Below, in pieces: positions 9,821 through 21,287 of a DNA stretch of 31,780 bases; the stretch's first letter is position 1, and every line of letters begins with the position of its first letter. A program made the translations under genes and the position numbers. The notes under the pieces are model-generated. The model did no database searches. It was not told the origin of the DNA and worked only from the letters and a program-made list of their open reading frames with translations. Source of the stretch: a virus; the IMG/VR virus record IMGVR_UViG_3300038825_001092, positions 1 through 31,780 of that record. One strand, given 5' to 3'.

Positions 9821-11794
9821 CTATGCGACTTTGACGATGATCTTTGCACGACCATCATCTTCTATTGCGATTACCTTACCTACAGCTGACATGTATTGTT
9901 CCAGCGTTGGAGAGGATACCGCTTGACCTGTAATACCTGTGCCATCTTGAATAGGAATAATAAAGTCACCGACACTTGCACCTGTGACGTTTACTGGTAC
10001 TTGCCCTGAGAACGCTATACGATCTACAGTTTGTCTTGCTGCCTCAAGTAAATCACCTTCTAAATCAGCACCCCAAGTATCTCCACCCACATAAGAGGGG
10101 TCTGTTGATTTAACAACAAAAGATATTGCATCATCCCATACATTTGTAAGTTTACCATTTACATCAATCCCACAAATGTCACCTTTTTGAATAGTAAAAG
10201 ATGTATTTGTTTTAACCATGTATTCTGCATAGTCTGCACCAGAAGCATTAATAGTTCCACTTGCATTAATGGACCGCCCTGTGCCAGTCACACGCCCACA
10301 AAAGATTGCTGTTGATGAACCGTTCCAACCCTCCGCATTAACAGAACCATCACCTTTTGCAACTATTGATCTATTTCCACCAATGGGGGAAACACTGAAG
10401 TCTGTTGTAGATCGCCAACCACTAGAGTCATAATACATGCGCGGATTACCATTCCCATCAGACAGCACGATATTGCTGCTTGAGGTGCGGATGTCTAGGC
10501 CGCCTTGGTTGCCTGTAAATCCACCAAGGATAGTATTGAATTGACCAGTGGTAACGTCTTTACCGCAGCCATTCGCATAACCTGTTCCAACAAAAGTATT
10601 GCCACGGCCAGTAGTGGCATTTTCCCCTGCCTTAAATCCAACAAAACAAGCATAATCTCCACTGGTCATAGTGGTGCCCGCCTGATGACCTATAGCCACG
10701 TTTTGTGACGAAGTGCTATTTCTTAATGCGCTATCACCCATTGCTACGTTATAGGCCCCCGTAGTGTTTACGCGTAAAGAACTGCCGCCCACCGCTACGT
10801 TAAATGTTCCCGTAGTATTTGACAGCAAGGCACTCTCACCAAAGGCGTGGTTATAATCACCCGTTGTGTTTGCGGTTAGCGCTTGGAAACCGAATGCTGT
10901 TATAGCACCTGTGGTGTTAGAGTATCCCGCTTGATATCCCACGGCTGTGTTGTTGCTTGCGGTGGTGTTGGAGCCTAAAGTAAGATAACCGACAGCCACA
11001 TTACTATTGCCTGTGGTGTTTGAAGACAATGCGTTGCGACCAACTGCCGTGTTGTCTATCCCAGTTGTGTTTGCATAAAGTGCAGCACGACCAACTGCTG
11101 TTAGGCTAGAACCTGTAGTGTTTGTATAAGCCGATAAATACCCGACTGCCGTGTTGTCGGATGCGGTGGTGTTATTTAGAAGTGCATCCGTACCAATCGC
11201 TGTATTGCTGGCTCCTGAAGTTGTTACGCTAAGAGCATTAGCGCCAACAGCCACATTGTCGTGCCCTGTCATTATGGCACCACCACCAGCACCATACCCT
11301 ACTAATGTTGTATCATCAGTTGTTGTTGCAGCATCACCAGCTTTGGAACCTAGTATAGTATTTCTGCTACCTGTGGTAATATCGTGACCAGCTTCATCAC
11401 CGACCGCTACGTTATCTGCTCCAGAAGTATTTGCGTTAAGAGCTTGATAGCCAACCGCAGTATTGTCTGTTGCTGTAGTAGATGTTTCTAATGCACCACT
11501 GCCAACCGCCACATTGTTGCTTGCGGTGGTATTTGCTGTAAGAGCAGCATAGCCGATTGCCACGTTGCCCCCACCTGGGCTTGATCCATCTAAGCTGTCT
11601 AACGCAGTGCTGCCCAGCGCTACGTTGTTCGAGCCAGTGGGATAATTCGCCAGAAGATCAAAGCCGCCAGCCGTGGATCCATCATGGACCCGCAGTCTTT
11701 TGGTTGTAGTATCGTAAGTAAGTTCACCTTGTGCGCCAGTAAAAGCGTCATTGTCTGCTTTATTACCGCGACGAATTTGTACTTGTGTAGCCAT
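9821..11794 (-). CDS. Distal tail fibre with YadA-like repeats and self-cleaving C-terminus
   Basis: The protein has 657 residues. The N-terminus (MATQVQIRRGNKADNDAFTG then GELTYDTTTKRLRVHDGST) is the common fibre-start domain seen in Mtd-like proteins. About residues 50-400 are 16-17-residue repeats of the type NTAVGxxALxxNTTGxxN, like trimeric autotransporter heads. The C-terminal part has ADYAEYM, GDICGIDVNGKL and ISFVVKSTDPSYVGG. It ends AIEDDGRAKIIVKVA, resembling the Peptidase_G2 autoproteolytic trimerisation domain. It should bind the host receptor, attached through the adaptor encoded upstream. Base use is more AT-rich than the neighbouring genes and nearly free of CCWGG, a sign of separate origin. 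Confidence 0.78.
   Translation of the reverse strand: MATQVQIRRGNKADNDAFTGAQGELTYDTTTKRLRVHDGSTAGGFDLLANYPTGSNNVALGSTALDSLDGSSPGGGNVAIGYAALTANTTASNNVAVGSGALETSTTATDNTAVGYQALNANTSGADNVAVGDEAGHDITTGSRNTILGSKAGDAATTTDDTTLVGYGAGGGAIMTGHDNVAVGANALSVTTSGASNTAIGTDALLNNTTASDNTAVGYLSAYTNTTGSSLTAVGRAALYANTTGIDNTAVGRNALSSNTTGNSNVAVGYLTLGSNTTASNNTAVGYQAGYSNTTGAITAFGFQALTANTTGDYNHAFGESALLSNTTGTFNVAVGGSSLRVNTTGAYNVAMGDSALRNSTSSQNVAIGHQAGTTMTSGDYACFVGFKAGENATTGRGNTFVGTGYANGCGKDVTTGQFNTILGGFTGNQGGLDIRTSSSNIVLSDGNGNPRMYYDSSGWRSTTDFSVSPIGGNRSIVAKGDGSVNAEGWNGSSTAIFCGRVTGTGRSINASGTINASGADYAEYMVKTNTSFTIQKGDICGIDVNGKLTNVWDDAISFVVKSTDPSYVGGDTWGADLEGDLLEAARQTVDRIAFSGQVPVNVTGASVGDFIIPIQDGTGITGQAVSSPTLEQYMSAVGKVIAIEDDGRAKIIVKVA
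10680..11560 (-). repeat. Fibre repeat array, about 51-bp units
   Basis: The DNA encodes about 17 degenerate copies of a 16-17-residue unit (AVG..AL..NTTG..N). The units are similar but not identical, so the array has diverged at DNA level. Unit number could still change by slippage or recombination. Confidence 0.75.
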
Positions 11795-12764: not shown

Positions 12765-12793
12765 TTTATACCAGATGTTGGTTAATTACCCAA
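12765..12793 (-). promoter_or_regulatory. Possible promoter for the fibre genes
   Basis: On the minus strand TTGGGT (12793-12788), a 17-base spacer and TATAAA (12770-12765), about 20 bases before the adaptor's ribosome site GGAG. The -35 is weak. It overlaps the 3' end of the preceding virion gene. Confidence 0.35.
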
Positions 12794-15253
12794 GATATTT
12801 TCTATATCTGGTCTGCGCTCGGGAAGCATCTTACCAGGCTCCCACCAGAAATCCTGTCCATACTCTCGAGCATACTTGCGTTTCATTCTTCGGATCTTCT
12901 TACCCGCATCCGGATCTGCCCACAACTTAGCCTGGTCAAACACCATTCGCTCCAGGCCCAGGCGCATGTACCAAAGCGATGCACCAGGCGTATATCGTTG
13001 TGCAAAGTTAATCATTTCACTGGCAATCTTGGTATCTTCGCCCTGGGCGGCCTCGATCACGTTGCCGATTGTTAGCTTGCGAAGGTCGTTAGCAAACCCC
13101 ACCACCGGGCCAGCGATTGTTTCTGCCAAGCCTCGATCGAAGCGGTTTAGATCTGAGAACAAAAAGTCACCGTAAATCCCCAGGCCACCGCCCTGCATGA
13201 ACGCAGCGCCCCAGAACTCGGGATCATCCATTGATCGAGGATCTCGACCCTTTGCCATTTCCTTGAGCTGTAGAGCCAGGGCGCCCATGATTGTTGTGCT
13301 GATGAGAAGATCCGCGAAGTAGCGTCCCTTGCCCTTCGCCCCTGGTGTTGCCGCCCCACGCATGATGTGAGTGTTCACCAGGGTAACGCCAAAGTTTTTA
13401 TACATGGCGAACGAACGGACCATTTCACCGCCGATCGAACCGGGTGGGAGATCCCCGGTCAACGCCGCTCGACCGCGAACTGATGTCGATGGAACCGCAA
13501 AGTTTGTTTCTGTCTCAACCATGCGCATAATGTCTGTCGCTAGTTCCCTGGCAAGACGAGGATCGATGTCTGTGCGGAACTCTACATCCTCGGCGCGTAG
13601 AAACTTGGCGCCCTTATAATCGTATAGCTCGGTGGTGCGGATAATATCCCAGCGATCGCTGTTGATGTTGTAGCGCTCCATAGCCTTGCGGAACATCGGA
13701 TCTAGCTCATCGAAGGACTTTCCTACGTTATCCGCCAGGCTTCCCAGGAACTCCATGCCAAACGCCCAGCGCCCGGCTTGTGTCATTGGCGATAGAAGCG
13801 ATGCCCTCATCACAAAGTCTGCGACCCGCCGCGTTACCTCTGGTCCAGAGATATCCCCGGTATAGCGCATCTGTGCCGCCGCTAGGGTAGACCACCCCTC
13901 CGCCGTTAGTCCCAGGCGAATTGCAAGCTTGCCCTTTTCCTCTGCGCCCAGGGGTAGCAAGAGCTTTATATACTGCATCAATGTTTTGGTTTGCGGCAAA
14001 CCATTCATACGCCGCGCAATGCGGTTAAAGTTCACATCGGTGATTGCTGAGATCGCCGCCGCCCCTAGCTGTGCGGATTGCAAGATTTGCCTGGTGCCAG
14101 CGAATGTTGTTGCCCAGAAGCGATTGACCGGGGTGTTATGTGTCCCCTGGAGAATGTTATAAAGCTCATCCACCTTTTTATTCGTGGATCTAGCTGCGCT
14201 CTCCGCTGCATCCTGGCCAGCCGCAGATTTAGCCAGGGTTTGCTTGATGAAGTTCTTGGTCGCCATTGGGTTTGGCCCCAGGCGCTCCATGAATGCAATG
14301 TCCCTGGACATGTTGCTAATGTGGCCCATCATCACATCGAACGGGTTATCATTGCCAAACTTCTCCTGGTACTCCATCCAGGAGTCAGCGTTCTTAAACA
14401 CCAGGAAGCGATGGTCTGCGTTCCGATTAGCCAGGGATTTACCGCCTGTTGGCCGACCTCCTGGTTTGATCTTGCTCATGCCATCGGTACGGATTGTTTC
14501 GTAAACATCTCTTAGAACAAGTTCGAGCTTTTCCGGGGAGAAGTGTAACCCGGTTTCCATGTCCTTCATTTTGTCCAGGTCAAGGCGCGATGAGATAAAG
14601 TCTCGCCATTCCTCGAAGCTTGCCTCTCGTACCTTCACGGTGCTGTGTTGCTGTGGAAGCCCCCAATCAGATCTCTTAGGGATTGCACCCCCGGCTGCAT
14701 TGAAACGCTTGCGCAGATATTCAGACGCCTCTTTCCAGGCTAGTGATAGCTCCCTGGCAGATGCATCCCCGGTGCTTTCGCCAAACACCTCTTTGATCAT
14801 GTTGTTTAGCTGGGCTTTGTTTCTGACCCGGCCAACCAAATCCCGGCGGAATGTTGCCAGGAACTTATCCATCTTACGGGTTGCGCTGCGCTCGATAGTC
14901 GCCTGGAGCTGCACAATGCTTGTATGCTTAGACGTTGCGTCTTGCTCGAAGAATGCCAGGGCTGCCTTGTTCATGTCCTGTTGCCCTGTGATCGTGCGAT
15001 AGTTCTGCATGTCCAGGGTGATCTTTTTCCAGGTCTGAGCTTGCAACATTGCCTGGCGCTTGCGCTCGATCGCTTTCTTACGCACCGCTGCCGCTGCATC
15101 GATCCCCGCTTTTGTCTCCGCTGGACCTGGACCTAGCTGTTTATTGTACTGATCCACCAGATCATCGAACAAGTTTGCATATTCATCCGCTTGTTCCTGG
15201 GAGATCTCACCAGCCGCTACACCATCCTCGACACATTTCTTGAACGTACTCAT
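12782..15253 (-). CDS. Large internal virion protein, 823 aa
   Basis: I choose the ATG at 15253, which overlaps the preceding stop (ATGA) and has GGGAG 10 bases upstream; a start at 15262 is also open. The N-terminus is acidic and helical. The middle has long amphipathic helices (KSAAGQDAAESAARSTNKK). The C-terminal half has hydrophobic stretches (LLISTTIMGALALQLKEMAK), then the conserved-looking QRYTPGASLWYMRLGLERMV and a W-rich end. This resembles the C-terminal part of T7-type core/ejection proteins, which form a channel across the envelope. No lytic domain is evident. Confidence 0.65.
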   Translation of the reverse strand: MSTFKKCVEDGVAAGEISQEQADEYANLFDDLVDQYNKQLGPGPAETKAGIDAAAAVRKKAIERKRQAMLQAQTWKKITLDMQNYRTITGQQDMNKAALAFFEQDATSKHTSIVQLQATIERSATRKMDKFLATFRRDLVGRVRNKAQLNNMIKEVFGESTGDASARELSLAWKEASEYLRKRFNAAGGAIPKRSDWGLPQQHSTVKVREASFEEWRDFISSRLDLDKMKDMETGLHFSPEKLELVLRDVYETIRTDGMSKIKPGGRPTGGKSLANRNADHRFLVFKNADSWMEYQEKFGNDNPFDVMMGHISNMSRDIAFMERLGPNPMATKNFIKQTLAKSAAGQDAAESAARSTNKKVDELYNILQGTHNTPVNRFWATTFAGTRQILQSAQLGAAAISAITDVNFNRIARRMNGLPQTKTLMQYIKLLLPLGAEEKGKLAIRLGLTAEGWSTLAAAQMRYTGDISGPEVTRRVADFVMRASLLSPMTQAGRWAFGMEFLGSLADNVGKSFDELDPMFRKAMERYNINSDRWDIIRTTELYDYKGAKFLRAEDVEFRTDIDPRLARELATDIMRMVETETNFAVPSTSVRGRAALTGDLPPGSIGGEMVRSFAMYKNFGVTLVNTHIMRGAATPGAKGKGRYFADLLISTTIMGALALQLKEMAKGRDPRSMDDPEFWGAAFMQGGGLGIYGDFLFSDLNRFDRGLAETIAGPVVGFANDLRKLTIGNVIEAAQGEDTKIASEMINFAQRYTPGASLWYMRLGLERMVFDQAKLWADPDAGKKIRRMKRKYAREYGQDFWWEPGKMLPERRPDIENILGN

Positions 15254-18200
15254 AGACCACATACTCCCAGGCGATTGATTAGTGCATCCTCTGCATCGAT
15301 GTCTGACTTGATATCACGCAGCGTTTTTGTTTCGGCCAATAGCTCCCCGGTTTCCTCATCGAACCTGGTTCCTAAAGGTATTTCTAGATCAAAGTCCTCG
15401 ACGTCGATTGTTTGAAATTCATCACTTTCTAGCTTTCTACCTAGACGCACTGAACGAATTTCCCCGTCATTCATACGCACTAAAATTTCTAACTCTGCCT
15501 CATTTCCAACGGCAACAACATCATCAGCATTTACCTCAAAACTTCTTGATGTCTTTTTAGCCATTACATCGGAATATCCTTCAATCCTCGTAACTGGAAT
15601 TTTTCGTTCGCCAAATTCTTTTTTAAGTGCCGATTGAAGAACAGATTTATATTGAGGATAATCTGGATCGTTTAAAACATCATCAATCCGGGAGCGATTA
15701 TTGTTATATATATAATCATCAAGACTAGACCCAATACCAGGATATTCAGTTAAGGCGCCTTCCTCACCCATAATCTCAAAAAGCTCTTTATACCCATCGG
15801 GCTTGATATCATCTGTGATATCGGTTAAAAGATCTGTAGGAGTATCATCTATGTCAGACACTTTTCTAGTTTCCTGGGACGGGCGCCCAGCGATCTCTTT
15901 TTCACCCTCTGAAGCCCTGGCAATACTTACACCAGGCGGCTCCTGGACTGCGGTTGACGGTCTCGATGTCCGTAACTCTGGGCGTGTGATTGCAGATGAA
16001 AGCGCCTTTATGTCTACATTCGAAAGTACCTTTGGGCCTTTCTCCATACCGACTAGCTTTGCAAACGAAGGATCTTCTTCAGACAAGGCTTTCGAATAGA
16101 TCTCTCTCTGTTCTTTCTCAAGACGCGCAAATTCTTCGGGATCTTTAGTCATACGCTGTTGTTCGTATAGCTTATGACCCTTTGTATTCTTTGCCTCGAT
16201 CAGCTTTGGAGACCAGATCTGTACCTCTGAAACAATCCCGTTTGGTGTGCGCACCAGGATCTTGCGGTCAAAGTATCCGGCGGGTGTGACGCCCCAGCCT
16301 TCATCCAGGATCTCTGCATTCTGCGCCAGGCGTTCTGCAATCGCATCGGCATCCGAAGCTTTGTTGATAACAAAACCAGCCCGGGAGATATCTGTCATTT
16401 CCCTGGCAGATGCATAACTTTTGCGCTGCATCTTCTCTTTTGCAGTCTCGATCTTCTTTAGACCAGGGTTTTTAAACTTAATCCCCAGGTCTGCCTCGAG
16501 GCTCTTACCGATGTTTGCAACAAAATCCTGGGACTCCTGGGCAATCTTGAAGATATCGTCAACCGTTTCGACGGGCTGCCGATCTTTTAATGAACGCTCA
16601 ACAGGTTTGATCTCTGTGATTTCCTCGAGTGTGCGGAATGTGTCCAGGACCATTTGATCCACCTGGGCCTCTGCCGCTGGACCTGTTGGCTCATCGAAAC
16701 CCTCTAGGGTTGGCTCGTCCTCGACCGCGTTTGCGCGGCTTTGCGGCGCAACATCGACAGCGCGTCCAACATCGCCAGTTGCCGCCCTATCAAAATCGCC
16801 TCGTTCAACTCCTCGTCTGACAGCTTCGGCGAAGTTTCGGGCTGCGGCTGCATATCCCTGGTCCTTTGCTTCTCTGGCTGCGGCTGAGAGGTCATCGCTG
16901 AGGGTTCCTTTGCGGTTTGCAAGGGCTTGGAGTAACGTGATCGCTTGGCCATCTTGGTCGGCCCTCCTTTGGTTTTGATCCTTGGCAAGCTTGTTTCCCT
17001 CTGCCTCGATACGCTCCGCGTTTCTGCTTAGGTTTTCAAACGATGCCTTGTCTGCGCGTAATAGCTTTACTGTGCGGTCCAGGACTTTCGCGCGTTCAGT
17101 GTATAGGCTTGTAGCTACATCCTCATCACCAAACAACGATACCTGGGTTTCCGTAACCATGTCAGTCTCGCGCACCTGGCGAACAATCGCCTCCGCCTGG
17201 AATGCGTTTGATGGATCTGACTTAGATAATACTTTGATTGCGGCTGCCTGTAGCTCCGGATCATCGATCAATCGACCAACGATTGCGCCGTAGTTTGCCG
17301 GGATAACCTGGTTGACGATAGCGCCGAATGCATCATTGCTTAAATTTACCAGGTCTTTTGCCTGGCGAACCAGCACAGATTGCGGGGGAAGCTCTGAGAT
17401 CCGCCCAGGCTCTACACGCAAAACCTTGGCGGCATCGATTACTGTACCCGTTCCCTGGGCAATGTTGGCCACCGCTGCAATGACACGGGCCTTCTCTGCG
17501 CTTATATCGTCGGTCTCACGAAGCTTGTACCCGATCAGGCTAATATCCTCGTCGGGCTTTTGATCCATTATTCTACGGGCTAGTCCGGCTCTCTGGTGGC
17601 CATCTGCGATGAATACCTTGCCCTGGGCATCTTCCCAGAAGATAACTGTCCCGGCTTTTACCGGGTCCCACTCTGTGACACCCTGCAAACGCTCGGTCAC
17701 ACCGTACTCGTCACCGCCTTCTTTAAACTGGAACCGCTTGGCATCGATGGTTACATCCCGCGCTGGGATTTTAAACATTACACCGTCCAGGTTATCTGCC
17801 GCCGCCTGGATCATTTCCGGGGTTGGCTCGATGGTCGGCTCATCAGTCATGGCCGGGGCTTTGTTATTCTCGACCGCCGCCTCTGCCGTTTCCGCCCGGC
17901 GATTATGTTCTGCCTGGGCTGGGGGTTGGTTGGCATCTGTGAACGGGTTGTCTACCTCTAGCTCCTCTGCCGCTTCTGCCGCATCCGCTAGTGCCTGGCT
18001 ATCCTTGTTTGCCTTCCCGGACTTGAATACCGCATTATATCCGCCCTTTGCTGCATCCAGGGAAACCTTTAGACCTACGCCGAACCCAGCGCTTGCGACC
18101 GCATTGATCCCTACGTTTTTAAGAAAGTCCTGGTATCCGTAGTCTAGCCCTTGCTCTTTGTACCAATCAGATACCCCTGCCTCCGCCATAGCGCCCGTAC

Positions 18201-18798
18201 CAGCGCCAATAACGGCCTCGGTCATAGCCAACCGCCATAGCGTCTTAGACTGCTTTAGAACCGCCGCATATGCAAACGCATTGACCGGATCCTCTACCAC
18301 GCCAGCCACACCGCCCAGGAAACTCCCGGCTGTTCCGCTAAATCCAGATGATCGAGATCCTATCTCCTGGGCAAACTCTCGGGCTGCCTTCGCTCGGTCC
18401 AGGGCAGTTTGCTCCAGGGTATCAAGCGTGATACCGCGCAAATGATCTGGTAGGCTCTCCTGGTTTTTATCCATAAAGTTTAGGATATTCTTAGCTGCGA
18501 AGTTATAGCGATCCATTGGGCCGTTGCCGGAATTGTAAACGCCCAGGCCAATGTTTAGGAAATCGCCAGGATCTTCGAAGTCACGGCCCAAAAATCCCTG
18601 GTTAGGAAACGCCTCATTTAGATCCTCTACAATCGGACCCCAGAGATCTTTTAGGATTGCGTCTTTACTTTGAGATTGATCGTTTAGCCGTAGGTTTTCC
18701 CTGGATGCAAAGAAGTTCTCCGCAAACCCGGTAACTGGCTTGGAGATCCCTGGCGTAGTTCCCAGGTCATAGGCATCAGCTCGATCAAACTCAATCAT
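15250..18798 (-). CDS. Polyvalent internal virion protein with ParB-like and RelA/SpoT-like domains
   Basis: The protein has 1182 residues. About 1-250 is a virion part. Residues 340-470 hold a ParB-like domain with VIFWEDAQGKVFIADGHQRA, the D-G-H-x-R signature. Residues 750-905 match the RelA/SpoT nucleotidyltransferase plan: a Lys-rich helix, DISRAGFVI, GYFDRKILVRTPNGIVSEVQ with the E-x-Q motif (E858, Q860), then HKLYEQQR. The C-terminus (about 1050-1110) with SRSFEVNADDVVAVGNEAEL faintly recalls ADP-ribosyltransferases of phage polyvalent proteins. Such multi-domain proteins are ejected with the DNA to act on the host. Whether the Rel-like domain pyrophosphorylates nucleotides or tRNA cannot be told. 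It overlaps both neighbours by ATGA. Confidence 0.68.
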   Translation of the reverse strand: MIEFDRADAYDLGTTPGISKPVTGFAENFFASRENLRLNDQSQSKDAILKDLWGPIVEDLNEAFPNQGFLGRDFEDPGDFLNIGLGVYNSGNGPMDRYNFAAKNILNFMDKNQESLPDHLRGITLDTLEQTALDRAKAAREFAQEIGSRSSGFSGTAGSFLGGVAGVVEDPVNAFAYAAVLKQSKTLWRLAMTEAVIGAGTGAMAEAGVSDWYKEQGLDYGYQDFLKNVGINAVASAGFGVGLKVSLDAAKGGYNAVFKSGKANKDSQALADAAEAAEELEVDNPFTDANQPPAQAEHNRRAETAEAAVENNKAPAMTDEPTIEPTPEMIQAAADNLDGVMFKIPARDVTIDAKRFQFKEGGDEYGVTERLQGVTEWDPVKAGTVIFWEDAQGKVFIADGHQRAGLARRIMDQKPDEDISLIGYKLRETDDISAEKARVIAAVANIAQGTGTVIDAAKVLRVEPGRISELPPQSVLVRQAKDLVNLSNDAFGAIVNQVIPANYGAIVGRLIDDPELQAAAIKVLSKSDPSNAFQAEAIVRQVRETDMVTETQVSLFGDEDVATSLYTERAKVLDRTVKLLRADKASFENLSRNAERIEAEGNKLAKDQNQRRADQDGQAITLLQALANRKGTLSDDLSAAAREAKDQGYAAAARNFAEAVRRGVERGDFDRAATGDVGRAVDVAPQSRANAVEDEPTLEGFDEPTGPAAEAQVDQMVLDTFRTLEEITEIKPVERSLKDRQPVETVDDIFKIAQESQDFVANIGKSLEADLGIKFKNPGLKKIETAKEKMQRKSYASAREMTDISRAGFVINKASDADAIAERLAQNAEILDEGWGVTPAGYFDRKILVRTPNGIVSEVQIWSPKLIEAKNTKGHKLYEQQRMTKDPEEFARLEKEQREIYSKALSEEDPSFAKLVGMEKGPKVLSNVDIKALSSAITRPELRTSRPSTAVQEPPGVSIARASEGEKEIAGRPSQETRKVSDIDDTPTDLLTDITDDIKPDGYKELFEIMGEEGALTEYPGIGSSLDDYIYNNNRSRIDDVLNDPDYPQYKSVLQSALKKEFGERKIPVTRIEGYSDVMAKKTSRSFEVNADDVVAVGNEAELEILVRMNDGEIRSVRLGRKLESDEFQTIDVEDFDLEIPLGTRFDEETGELLAETKTLRDIKSDIDAEDALINRLGVCGL

Positions 18799-21287
18799 TG
18801 ACTAGCTTTCCAATCTTTAAATGGTTTTATTTCGCCTTCAAGAACTGCCTGAATGTACTCCACATAATCGTCATTGCTTGCACTATCAGGGACACTTGCC
18901 ATAAATGGCAAAAGAATATCACTCGTGGATGGGTCTACGCCTAGCTCCTCGAGCGCTTTCTTATTAGACATCTTTGCAAGTCTAATATCTTTTCTAAATG
19001 TCTGCTCAGGCTCTAGCGTTCTCATGCGTTCTGTTGATACGCCCGGCGCAGTAGCTTCCTCTGCACCTCTAAACTCACCTGTTGGCGCGGGTTCTGGCGC
19101 ACTAGGCATAGTTGGTTGAACTGGCATTGCCATAGCACCAGGAACCGGAACCATTGCATCGATCAAGTCTTGGCCCTTGAATATGATCGGATCACCGTCT
19201 GTATCCATCACAACCGCGTCACCCTTCTCACCATACTCGATCACATACTTGTCGCCGCCAATGTTACGCACCTTATAATTTTCGTTTTCATTGATCTGTG
19301 TTGCCAGGGCGCTATCAAGTTTTTGACCCAGAACAGTTTCAACCACGTTAGGTGTAATGTTTTCCAGGATACGCTCATATGATCCTGCGTTTTGCTTGGG
19401 ATGAACAAATGTTGGGACACCGCGAACATCTTGAATGCCGCCGTACACCTCACCATTGATAACGCGCTGCCCTGTCGCCATCTGCAAAGCCTGTGCATAA
19501 AGCTTTCCATCAAACGCATCTACGCCCTGGTTTGCCGCCAGCTCTGCATAGATCGCTTTGGCCACGCCCTTGATTGCCTGGGCTTGCTTAGGTGTTGTGA
19601 TCGCCCGGCCAAACGTGTCTTGGAATACTGGGACTGTTTCTGTGTCAGTAAACCCAACAGGCTTTTCCCCGGCCTTCAATCGATCAAAACCGGCGACCGC
19701 TGTAGCGGCGGCCTCTGTTGCGCCTTCATTCACCAATGCGCCAACCATAGCCATGTTTGGATTGTAGTCTGCCAGGTCAGTCAAAACTTGACCCGCTGCC
19801 TGGTTAAAGTTTGAAAGTGTCCCCAGGATCTCTAACTTTGCATTGCCTTCAGCTCGATCAAGCATAACGCCGAGTTGTCGCGCCTCATCAGCAAACAATA
19901 GCTTTTGATTGGGTAATTGATAATAGTTCTGCACCCGCAATGCAGCCGCTGCACGTTCTTCTAATGCAGCCTCATCCAACGACAAAGCCCCACTTTCATC
20001 CAGGCCAACGATTGGTTGACGATCTATAAACCCAACCCGTGCGGCATATCCTATAGGATCTTGGGCAAGCTGTGTGCGCATGTTGGTTAGAAACTTCGAA
20101 GCTTGTTCGTATCTCTTGACCTCGATTGCTGTATCCATAACGCCATCGGCGCCATCTTGTAGATCGATGACCATTGCCTCGACCTCACTAAGTGACGCAC
20201 CGCGTAGCTGAGAAAAGAACAATTCGCTCTCTTGTAGCTGATTAGACGCGCCCAGGGCTGCGCCACCATCGAACTCGGCAACATCACTTGCCTTGTCTCG
20301 TAAGCTTGCCATTACGTCCTGGCTAACACGGCCTCCGCTTTCCAGGATACCTTCGAGATCTTCAACCTTGTTTACAACGAAATCTGACTGAGATTTCATA
20401 ACCGATAGATTGCGATTGTATTCGGGACGCAGCAATCCATTTACAAAGCGAATGCTCTTTTCGTAGTCCATACCTGGCAAAGTTGTCTCGCCATCCAGGA
20501 CCGCCTCCATCAATGCGCCTTGTTCCGCAATTGGCTTTTGGTAGAAGTCAAATAAGAAGTTTTCTTTGTACGCTTTTTCTTTGATATCGTCTGACCAGGC
20601 TTGCACCAATTCCGGCTTCACACCCAGATCCATCAGTGTTTGCGCACCCTTTGCGATATCGTCATCAATCGCTTGTGTGGTGTAACCAGGAACAACCGCG
20701 TTCCCCAGGATAAACTCTGCCTCGTTTGCCGCAACATTGTTCTGCTTAACCTTGCGCTGTTTGGCGATTTCGCCTGTCCACCACTTAGAATAACGCAGCT
20801 CGGCTTTGCCTGTGGCCTCTTGTAGCTGTGTGCGTAGCAACCCGGCAGAAACAGGATCGATGTTAGATAATGCCGCAGGGAAACCGTCAGAGATATCTTT
20901 TAGTTGCGCCTGGATAGCGCTGTAAGATTGCTTATTTGCCTGGCCCTGGTCCAAGATCTTTGTGATCTCTAGCTCTGCCTCTGTGCGGATCTCGGCGACC
21001 GCAATGCGATTTGCCGCTTCGTAAGCTGTTTTTTCTGCTAAACCCCTGGGACCGCCCTGGCTTTGTAATTGCTCGAGGACAGGTTGCGCCCCTTGTTCCC
21101 GGACGCGCTCAAGGCCAGTACGGACTGACTCCTCCTGGGCAGTCTTGTACAGGAAATCCCCCATGCGATCAAAAGCGGCAGACATTGCCTGGCCAGTTCT
21201 AGCTTGCTCTCGAAAACCAGCGTAATCAATATTTTGAGCTTGGGCGGCCCTAACACCTAATCTTTGATATCGTGGTAATCTAGCCAT
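18795..21287 (-). CDS. Internal virion protein, 830 aa
   Basis: The sequence begins MARLPRYQRLGVRAAQAQNI and is almost wholly helical, rich in Ala, Gln and Glu. It has no cysteine-rich or membrane part and no lytic motif. This fits the middle core protein (T7 gp15 class) by size, composition and place: just after the gp14-like gene and before the two largest virion proteins. The C-terminal quarter is Pro-rich and then acidic. It ends with an ATGA overlap to the polyvalent protein gene. Ribosome site AAGG. Confidence 0.65.
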   Translation of the reverse strand: MARLPRYQRLGVRAAQAQNIDYAGFREQARTGQAMSAAFDRMGDFLYKTAQEESVRTGLERVREQGAQPVLEQLQSQGGPRGLAEKTAYEAANRIAVAEIRTEAELEITKILDQGQANKQSYSAIQAQLKDISDGFPAALSNIDPVSAGLLRTQLQEATGKAELRYSKWWTGEIAKQRKVKQNNVAANEAEFILGNAVVPGYTTQAIDDDIAKGAQTLMDLGVKPELVQAWSDDIKEKAYKENFLFDFYQKPIAEQGALMEAVLDGETTLPGMDYEKSIRFVNGLLRPEYNRNLSVMKSQSDFVVNKVEDLEGILESGGRVSQDVMASLRDKASDVAEFDGGAALGASNQLQESELFFSQLRGASLSEVEAMVIDLQDGADGVMDTAIEVKRYEQASKFLTNMRTQLAQDPIGYAARVGFIDRQPIVGLDESGALSLDEAALEERAAAALRVQNYYQLPNQKLLFADEARQLGVMLDRAEGNAKLEILGTLSNFNQAAGQVLTDLADYNPNMAMVGALVNEGATEAAATAVAGFDRLKAGEKPVGFTDTETVPVFQDTFGRAITTPKQAQAIKGVAKAIYAELAANQGVDAFDGKLYAQALQMATGQRVINGEVYGGIQDVRGVPTFVHPKQNAGSYERILENITPNVVETVLGQKLDSALATQINENENYKVRNIGGDKYVIEYGEKGDAVVMDTDGDPIIFKGQDLIDAMVPVPGAMAMPVQPTMPSAPEPAPTGEFRGAEEATAPGVSTERMRTLEPEQTFRKDIRLAKMSNKKALEELGVDPSTSDILLPFMASVPDSASNDDYVEYIQAVLEGEIKPFKDWKASQ

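Follow-up and report, generated by a model that had tools for sequence, protein, structure and literature searches.

An exchangeable RelA/SpoT-fold domain in a putative ejection protein of a T7-like podovirus

The stretch analyzed here, hereafter the window, is a virus record of 31,780 bases (IMGVR_UViG_3300038825_001092), whose minus strand encodes a protein of 1182 amino acids, the polyvalent protein, with a domain resembling RelA/SpoT enzymes (the Rel-like domain). The protein has a conserved core with a predicted ParB/sulfiredoxin fold and a conserved tail. These flank a slot that holds different contents in different relatives, and here the Rel-fold domain and a small second module. We propose that it probably belongs to the ejection (internal virion) proteins of a T7-like podovirus and also carries an effector, a pyrophosphokinase of the Tas1/Apk1 type. 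The proposal draws on a Tas1-type fold, catalytic residues, purifying selection, exchange of the slot, a T7-type gene position and the exclusion of cysteine, and from these we infer the enzyme activity, the substrate and the location in the virion.

Relatives (numbered with the prefix L) were collected with the conserved core; 80 of at least 167 were kept, 80 distinct proteins as judged by their last 500 residues, and these gave 66 complete distinct proteins by their last 400 residues, the window apart. Incomplete proteins, L023-L025 (which lack the core) and L055 were left out before the 66 were counted. The features of the gene are:

15250..18798, minus strand: whole polyvalent protein gene (open reading frame and translation, 1182 amino acids plus stop)
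16624..18798, minus strand: conserved core, residues 1-725 (aligned with relatives as protein and as DNA; retained where the slot content differs)
17449..17781, minus strand: predicted ParB/sulfiredoxin-fold domain, residues 340-450 (model, Foldseek and VIA), with DGHQR (399-403) at 17590-17604
15403..16623, minus strand: exchangeable slot, residues 726-1132 (contents differ between near-identical relatives)
16051..16569, minus strand: Tas1/Apk-type RelA/SpoT-fold domain, residues 744-916 (model, fold searches, family profile and conservation)
16381-16392, 16261-16278 and 16219-16227, minus strand: the Rel-like motifs DISR, GYFDRK and EVQ, respectively
15403..15798, minus strand: additional module spanning residues 1001-1132 (not present in L002-L004; L087 and L109 carry homologous modules; ADP-ribosyltransferase (ART)-like by motif only)
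15253..15402, minus strand: conserved C-terminal tail, residues 1133-1182, with the sole cysteine, C1180, at 15259-15261

Results

The Rel-like domain is predicted to adopt a Tas1-type fold

A first-pass annotation, made from the letters of the window alone, had read this gene as a virion-borne protein with ParB-like and RelA/SpoT-like domains. The open reading frame (ORF) is present at the length given there, runs from an ATG at 18798 to 15250 without an internal stop and lies on the minus strand, a detail that the annotation did not give; its motifs also lie where they had been placed (DGHQR at residue 399, DISRAGFVI at 803, GYFDRK at 841, EVQI at 858 and HKLYE at 875). A model of residues 733-940, built on an alignment of 29 sequences, had a predicted local distance difference test score (pLDDT) of 88.6. 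When this model was compared with the PDB by Foldseek, the first match was Tas1, an effector of the type VI secretion system (T6SS), with an E-value of 2.2e-8, and Tas1 was also the top match in VIA (Z 16.1, root-mean-square deviation 2.6, 162 residues aligned). Lower VIA rows were the exported synthetase SaEAS and RelP (14.9), CapRel (11.8), FaRel2 (7.6) and unrelated nucleotidyltransferases (near 7), so that RelP and SaEAS stand within 1-2 Z units of Tas1. The top matches of the two methods, namely Tas1, SaEAS, SAS1/SAS2 and Rel, place the model in the RelA/SpoT synthetase fold; an unrelated fold had been named beforehand as an outcome that would have overturned the annotation. A profile of the Rel-like family likewise retrieved Tas1 from the PDB sequences at E 8.4e-20. 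Among predicted viral structures, the nearest to the model were polyvalent proteins of uncultured tailed phages annotated as 'RelA/SpoT', 'DdrB-like' or 'ART-PolyVal-like'.

Searches with single sequences were far less informative. Scans of the polyvalent protein against Pfam and PHROGs, whole and by domain, gave no RelA_SpoT match, and these blank results made the fold search and the family profile necessary; an NCBIfam scan of the window protein, a phmmer search of PDB sequences with the whole protein and a tblastn search of a cultured-phage collection with the Rel-like domain gave nothing.

Catalytic residues are retained with a distinct acceptor-site motif

Conservation was assessed in 50 distinct Rel-like domain sequences, the bacterial L124-L126 having been left out. 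K781, D803, R806, K846, E858 and Y878 are invariant in all 50 and Q860 is present in 48, which argues that the Rel-like motifs do not arise by chance. The catalytic acidic residues, the syn2 aspartate D803 and the glutamate E858 of the E-x-Q motif, are thus retained throughout, as is nearly always the E-x-Q motif itself, the loss of which in close relatives would have spoken against the annotation. R806, E858 and Q860 align with R330, E382 and Q384 of Apk1, which are residues named in the available part of PMC12691689; the numbering of the 6ox6 chain was shifted by 21 to agree with those names, a shift that we deduced.

The syn3 motif, according to the accessible portion of PMC12226406, reads GxN in Apk and SxH in RelA/SpoT enzymes, and its histidine is tied there to the recognition of guanosine. 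In the Rel-like domain it reads D-x-K in place of the Apk form (D844 in 49 of 50 and K846 in 50 of 50), and the syn2 region carries an Apk-like arginine. Judged from these alignments, the domain is Apk-like at syn2 and has an acceptor-site signature of its own. The ratio of nonsynonymous to synonymous substitution rates (dN/dS), calculated for 13 of the 50 domains, had a median of 0.13 over the 23 pairs with dS of 0.1-2, and was 0.022 between the window and L002; these values indicate that purifying selection acts on the Rel-like domain.

The Rel-like domain occupies an exchangeable slot

The relatives share a stretch reaching from residue 1 to about residue 725 and a tail of some 50 residues, and differ in what lies between. 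Among the 66 complete proteins the slot holds a Rel domain in 31, a Zeta-type kinase in 25 and a diverged Rel-like domain in four, is empty in four, and holds a Rel domain with a window-type insert in one; the remaining protein, L102, has a cassette with a weak ART-PolyVal match (E 0.0013). The Zeta-type identity is secure at the level of sequence, with PF06414 matched in 15 of 39 cassette representatives (E 1e-22 in L005) and the Zeta toxin 1gvn matched by L005 at E 0.008. The diverged Rel-like class is defined by motifs only, since its alignment match to Rel possibly stems from a shared linker.

Comparison of DNA shows that the content of the slot is cleanly replaced between relatives. Between L020 (Rel) and L039 (Zeta), identity is 96-98% ahead of the slot and 92% past it; the corresponding values are 91% and 93% for L060 (empty) and L061 (Rel), and 95% and 83% for L035 (empty) and L033 (diverged Rel). 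The class of the slot differs in 4 of 13 pairs with at least 97% N-terminal identity, and the window itself, with Rel plus insert, is 98.0% identical N-terminal to the slot to L005, which carries Zeta. The empty slots mean that the effector is dispensable, and the rapid exchange suggests that shifts in hosts or defenses act as the selective force. That the enzyme is an exchangeable cassette is an addition to what the first-pass annotation had described.

Relative to L002, the window protein has residues 1001-1132 in excess. For this insert nothing convincing was found in Pfam, PHROGs or PDB sequences, and a search of viral contigs gave one further relative, L109. The annotation had suggested a tail resembling ADP-ribosyltransferases; the resemblance stands at the level of motifs, and these same searches lent it no support. 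A serine-rich linker that follows the Rel-like domain (residues 941-985; window 15844-15978) is recognizably conserved even with the distant L116, the BLASTP alignment spanning it, and seems to travel with the cassette. The cassettes of L007, L026, L091 and L081 seem to start with a second ParB-like domain ahead of Rel, for which the signals are weak (a ParB PHROG at E 0.03 in L007; PF02195 at 13.3 bits in the L081 record).

Gene position and cysteine content resemble those of ejection proteins

The late genes of the window follow the order of T7: terminase, head-tail connector, T7-type capsid assembly protein, capsid and tail tubular proteins A and B, and after these a 148-amino-acid internal virion protein, an 830-amino-acid ORF, the polyvalent gene, a phrog_684 virion structural protein and fibre genes. 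The statement in the annotation that the gene is embedded among ejection proteins therefore agrees with gene order, since the polyvalent gene lies downstream of the tail tubular genes and between these two neighbours:

12782..15253, minus strand: phrog_684 virion protein, the next gene (823 amino acids from a start overlapping at ATGA; single cysteine at residue 7)
18795..21287, minus strand: 830-amino-acid ORF upstream, at a T7 gp15-like position (cysteine-free; C-terminus variable)

In the cultured Prochlorococcus podovirus P-SCSP1a a homologous ParB-like region occurs in a protein of 2,571 amino acids at the corresponding place downstream of the tail tubular genes.

The window polyvalent protein has a single cysteine, C1180, at the third position from its end. 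Exactly one cysteine is found in 65 of the 66 complete relatives, and all 66 have their last cysteine at the penultimate or antepenultimate position. In the next virion protein the only cysteine is residue 6 or 7 in each of the 64 cases in which that protein was found, some being cut by contig ends. The upstream neighbour has one cysteine in 51,859 amino acids from 64 relatives, and 62 cassettes of at least 100 amino acids have none in 20,080. Nine of 15 bacterial loci were examined for the cysteine pair, and these divergent loci have it in seven, L121 among them with two further cysteines; L115 lacks such a tail cysteine, and for L122 the next gene was not found. P-SCSP1a has neither cysteine of the pair. 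In L117 another gene separates the polyvalent gene from the next virion gene and both cysteines are kept; this intervening gene (L117 7074-7706) encodes 210 amino acids with similarity to Tad2, a Thoeris anti-defense protein, at E 1.5e-4, just under the Pfam cut-off.

T7 gp15 and gp16, SP6 p36 and p37, P22 gp7, gp20 and gp16, and the N4 vRNAP are regarded as ejected with DNA. These eight proteins, 9,122 amino acids in all, are free of cysteine; most other virion proteins of T7, SP6, P22 and N4 contain it. In the window, the four presumed ejection genes encode 2 cysteines in 2,986 amino acids versus 40 in the 5,644 amino acids of the other 22 listed genes. The contrast is smaller among the relatives, because their non-adjacent structural ORFs of at least 300 amino acids are low in cysteine too (80 in 46,924). 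Scarcity of cysteine as a mere trait of the genome was considered, and is opposed by the contrast within the window and less so by that among the relatives. The idea that an overlapping start codon forces the C-terminal cysteine was rejected: the overlap consists of ATGA at the stop codon, both cysteine codons are used (TGT in 36 of the 66, TGC in 30), and in L117 the genes are apart and both cysteines remain. We regard the exclusion of cysteine as indirect evidence, by analogy, of transit through the cell envelope, and the paired single cysteines hint that the polyvalent and phrog_684 proteins may be in contact or joined by a disulfide. In the open-access literature searched, including the available parts of PMC8923235 (in which the T7 pore proteins are named) and PMC9509320, nothing on point was found about this cysteine pattern.

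The core contains a predicted ParB/sulfiredoxin fold

The ParB-like domain of the annotation is supported at the level of fold. The model of residues 330-480 had a pLDDT of 86.4, and nearly all of its 31 best Foldseek rows were ParB, Noc, KorB, PadC or sulfiredoxin, a consistent content at E-values of only 0.009-0.15; one further row was Atu1540. VIA gave Z 8.5 to ParB, and the DGHQR block is invariant in 38 of 38 aligned sequences, so that the model supports a ParB/sulfiredoxin fold with a conserved arginine motif. The domain is not the DdrB-ParB of Pfam: PF18763 matched neither the window nor 10 of 11 records, its sole match being in the bacterial genome of L113, and hhalign found no relation between the ParB alignment and the DdrB-ParB region of L116. 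The top PDB sequence matches of the ParB profile were tandem-ubiquitin chains, which we took as chance because single stretches gave E-values above 1000.

Discussion

These observations provide a basis for a model of how the protein might act. The carrier would be packed in the phage head, leave with the DNA and thread through the cell envelope, a passage for which we propose that cysteine is excluded; injection with DNA is indicated indirectly by the gene position and by a cysteine exclusion resembling that of known ejection proteins. The cassette would then be delivered to, or exposed in, the cytoplasm, where the Rel-like domain would transfer pyrophosphate from ATP to the 3′-OH of an acceptor; the likeliest acceptor is an adenine nucleotide, and (p)ppApp would then be the product. 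Host nucleotide pools, transcription and translation would be perturbed, either for takeover of the cell or against rival phages. A changed acceptor is possible given the invariant D-x-K at syn3, which differs from GxN and SxH alike.

Several observations weigh against this proposal. The position of Apk1 N370 is a lysine in the Rel-like domain and K353 of Apk1 has no conserved counterpart in the family-profile alignment, which makes the product uncertain. Pfam PF04607 (RelA_SpoT) matched none of 15 records at E 10, with controls positive, and the bacterial relative L119 reached it at E 0.0063, below the cut-off. T7 gp14, which counts as an ejected protein, carries a single cysteine, at residue 2, and some virion proteins that are not ejected are also cysteine-free (P22 gp26; fibre, scaffold or head proteins of N4 and of the window), so that the argument from cysteine is an indirect one. 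Finally, a drain on ATP would harm the phage as well.

The acceptor could be other than an adenine nucleotide. A tRNA pyrophosphokinase of the toxic small alarmone synthetase (toxSAS) type would modify the 3′-CCA end and halt host translation, which would suit the idea in the first-pass annotation of an injected enzyme that reprograms translation; the fold is common to CapRel and FaRel2, and a syn3 motif of neither the Apk nor the RelA/SpoT form would allow an unusual acceptor. However, Tas1 and SaEAS are clearly closer than CapRel and FaRel2 in both structure and sequence, so that we consider this unlikely, although a common fold leaves the choice of acceptor undecided. Of the alarmone or tRNA-modifying enzyme that the annotation had envisaged, the RelA/SpoT fold is borne out by the model, but the closest characterized relatives are adenosine 3′-pyrophosphokinases (Tas1/Apk1 and SaEAS) and not tRNA pyrophosphokinases. 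It is quite unlikely, in our judgment, that the domain makes (p)ppGpp and so switches on the stringent response of the host early in infection. The fold is one in common with (p)ppGpp synthetases (VIA Z of about 14-15), and among related exported synthetases (p)ppGpp is the sole product of VpEAS and AaEAS, with SaEAS giving both products, as described in the accessible portion of PMC12691689; yet the syn3 histidine that PMC12226406, in the part available, links to guanosine is a lysine in 50 of 50 domains, and syn2 has the Apk-like arginine.

Loss of catalysis, leaving the domain with a structural or binding role in the virion, would account for the change of the syn3 asparagine or histidine to lysine and for the missing K353. 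It is made very improbable by the invariance of D803, R806 and E858 in all 50 sequences and by the low dN/dS, and a scaffold role leaves unexplained why the domain is replaced by a Zeta kinase or by nothing. To the notion of a polymorphic toxin for competition between bacteria, similar to the MuF toxins of temperate phages and accompanied by an immunity gene, we give almost no credence. A conserved carrier with exchangeable toxin-type domains would fit it, as would the relatives in bacterial contigs, which are possibly prophages. Small downstream ORFs are discussed as typical of MuF polymorphic toxins in the available part of PMC5576092; here, however, the next gene is a virion gene that overlaps by ATGA, so that a small immunity ORF would not fit in between, and an HD_4 hydrolase was found in 0 of 8 records, which together argue against a standard polymorphic toxin. 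A tyrosine integrase was found in only 1 of 11 records, and the neighbouring DNA downstream stays aligned across the swap. Scans of the N-terminal part against Pfam and PHROGs gave no match to the MuF family.

Returning to the ejected effector carrier, we advance tentatively, as a doubtful possibility, a broader form of the proposal, in which the ejection machines of podoviruses have an effector port. A cysteine-free carrier with a Rel, Zeta or ART slot in rapid rotation would be tethered to the next ejection protein through their paired cysteines (C-terminal in one, N-terminal in the other), and a disulfide formed in the oxidizing periplasm would open in the reducing cytoplasm to release the effector; the Rel form would have a third kind of acceptor site (D-x-K), and its product might be neither (p)ppGpp nor (p)ppApp.

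Relation to known systems

Phage polyvalent proteins with RelA/SpoT domains, predicted to be injected, were described by Iyer et al. in 2017 (PMC5512222), and in the portion of that paper available the RelA/SpoT carriers named are (pro)phages of spirochaetes and epsilonproteobacteria and MuF fusions. Like those proteins, in which ParB-like, RelA/SpoT and ART-type domains occur, the one described here is a large multidomain product encoded among virion genes, with ParB-like and RelA/SpoT domains, an insert that is ART-like by motif and a proposed injection, and it combines ParB-fold and Rel-fold enzyme-type domains in one large late-gene protein. Unlike those described in the available text of PMC5512222, it has no DdrB-ParB match, it has one fixed internal slot whose contents across relatives include the Zeta kinase, and it occupies the position of a podovirus ejection protein. 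What was known was the 2017 prediction of RelA/SpoT domains in phage polyvalent proteins, to which the present analysis adds a delimited slot, exchanged in nature, within a protein of the ejection type; the variant is marked by the podovirus ejection-type carrier, the swappable internal slot, the distinct syn3 motif and the paired-cysteine pattern. No papers on Zeta toxins in polyvalent proteins or on ejected alarmone synthetases were found in the open-access literature searched.

The T6SS adenosine 3′-pyrophosphokinase toxin Tas1/Apk1 (6ox6) is the best match in fold and profile and has the equivalents of R330, E382 and Q384; it differs in the N370 and K353 positions and in its carrier, and neither a PAAR domain nor an immunity gene was seen here. 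Exported relatives are surveyed in PMC12691689, as far as its available part goes. Apk2, a MuF-phage toxin carried on MuF in temperate phages, was demonstrated to make (p)ppApp and is followed by the immunity genes iapK and aph1, according to the available text of PMC12226406. The two have in common a carrier of phage virion type and an Apk-type domain (C-terminal in Apk2), whereas here the carrier is of the ParB-fold ejection type, a conserved tail follows the cassette and no such immunity genes were found. Zeta toxins (PF06414; 1gvn) are represented in the same slot of 25 of the 66 complete relatives; Zeta is absent from the window protein, and in the relatives it forms part of a virion-type protein, for which no antitoxin was seen. 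With T7 gp15/gp16 and SP6 p36/p37 the corresponding gene position is shared, and the absence of cysteine also with P22 gp7/gp20/gp16 and N4 vRNAP; the likeness drawn here to these ejection proteins is one of these two features.

Because near-identical phages differ in their effector or lack one, the role of injected effectors is directly testable with the slot variants. The absence of cysteine could serve as a cheap sequence marker of envelope-crossing proteins if it survives a wider test, and the paired single cysteines yield a specific prediction that can be checked, a contact of two virion proteins.

Distribution and other observations

Fifteen bacterial contigs, most of them from Alphaproteobacteria to judge by the titles, also carry the Rel-like domain. 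The proteins that bear it there include a DdrB-ParB protein (L116) and two short proteins of 548 and 549 amino acids (L112, 4927-6570, and L119, 4912-6558), in which the Rel domain lies at the end and the polyvalent core is lacking; the gene upstream in L112 encodes a protein kinase domain. These short proteins may be stand-alone exported toxins. L111 (HQ332136.1), Dunaliella viridis virus SI2, with an algal host on record, is a family member with an empty slot; it is classed in Caudoviricetes and so probably infects a bacterium instead.

The C-terminal part of the 830-amino-acid protein (window 18795-21287) and its homologues differs in sequence and length among close relatives, and may be a second variable site. 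Elsewhere in the window there are genes resembling those for an O-like replication initiator and for Gam-like, Sak-like annealing and endolysin proteins. A fibre-type ORF at 9821-11794 has an N-terminal Major tropism determinant domain (PF18454, E 6e-14), which makes a diversity-generating element conceivable.

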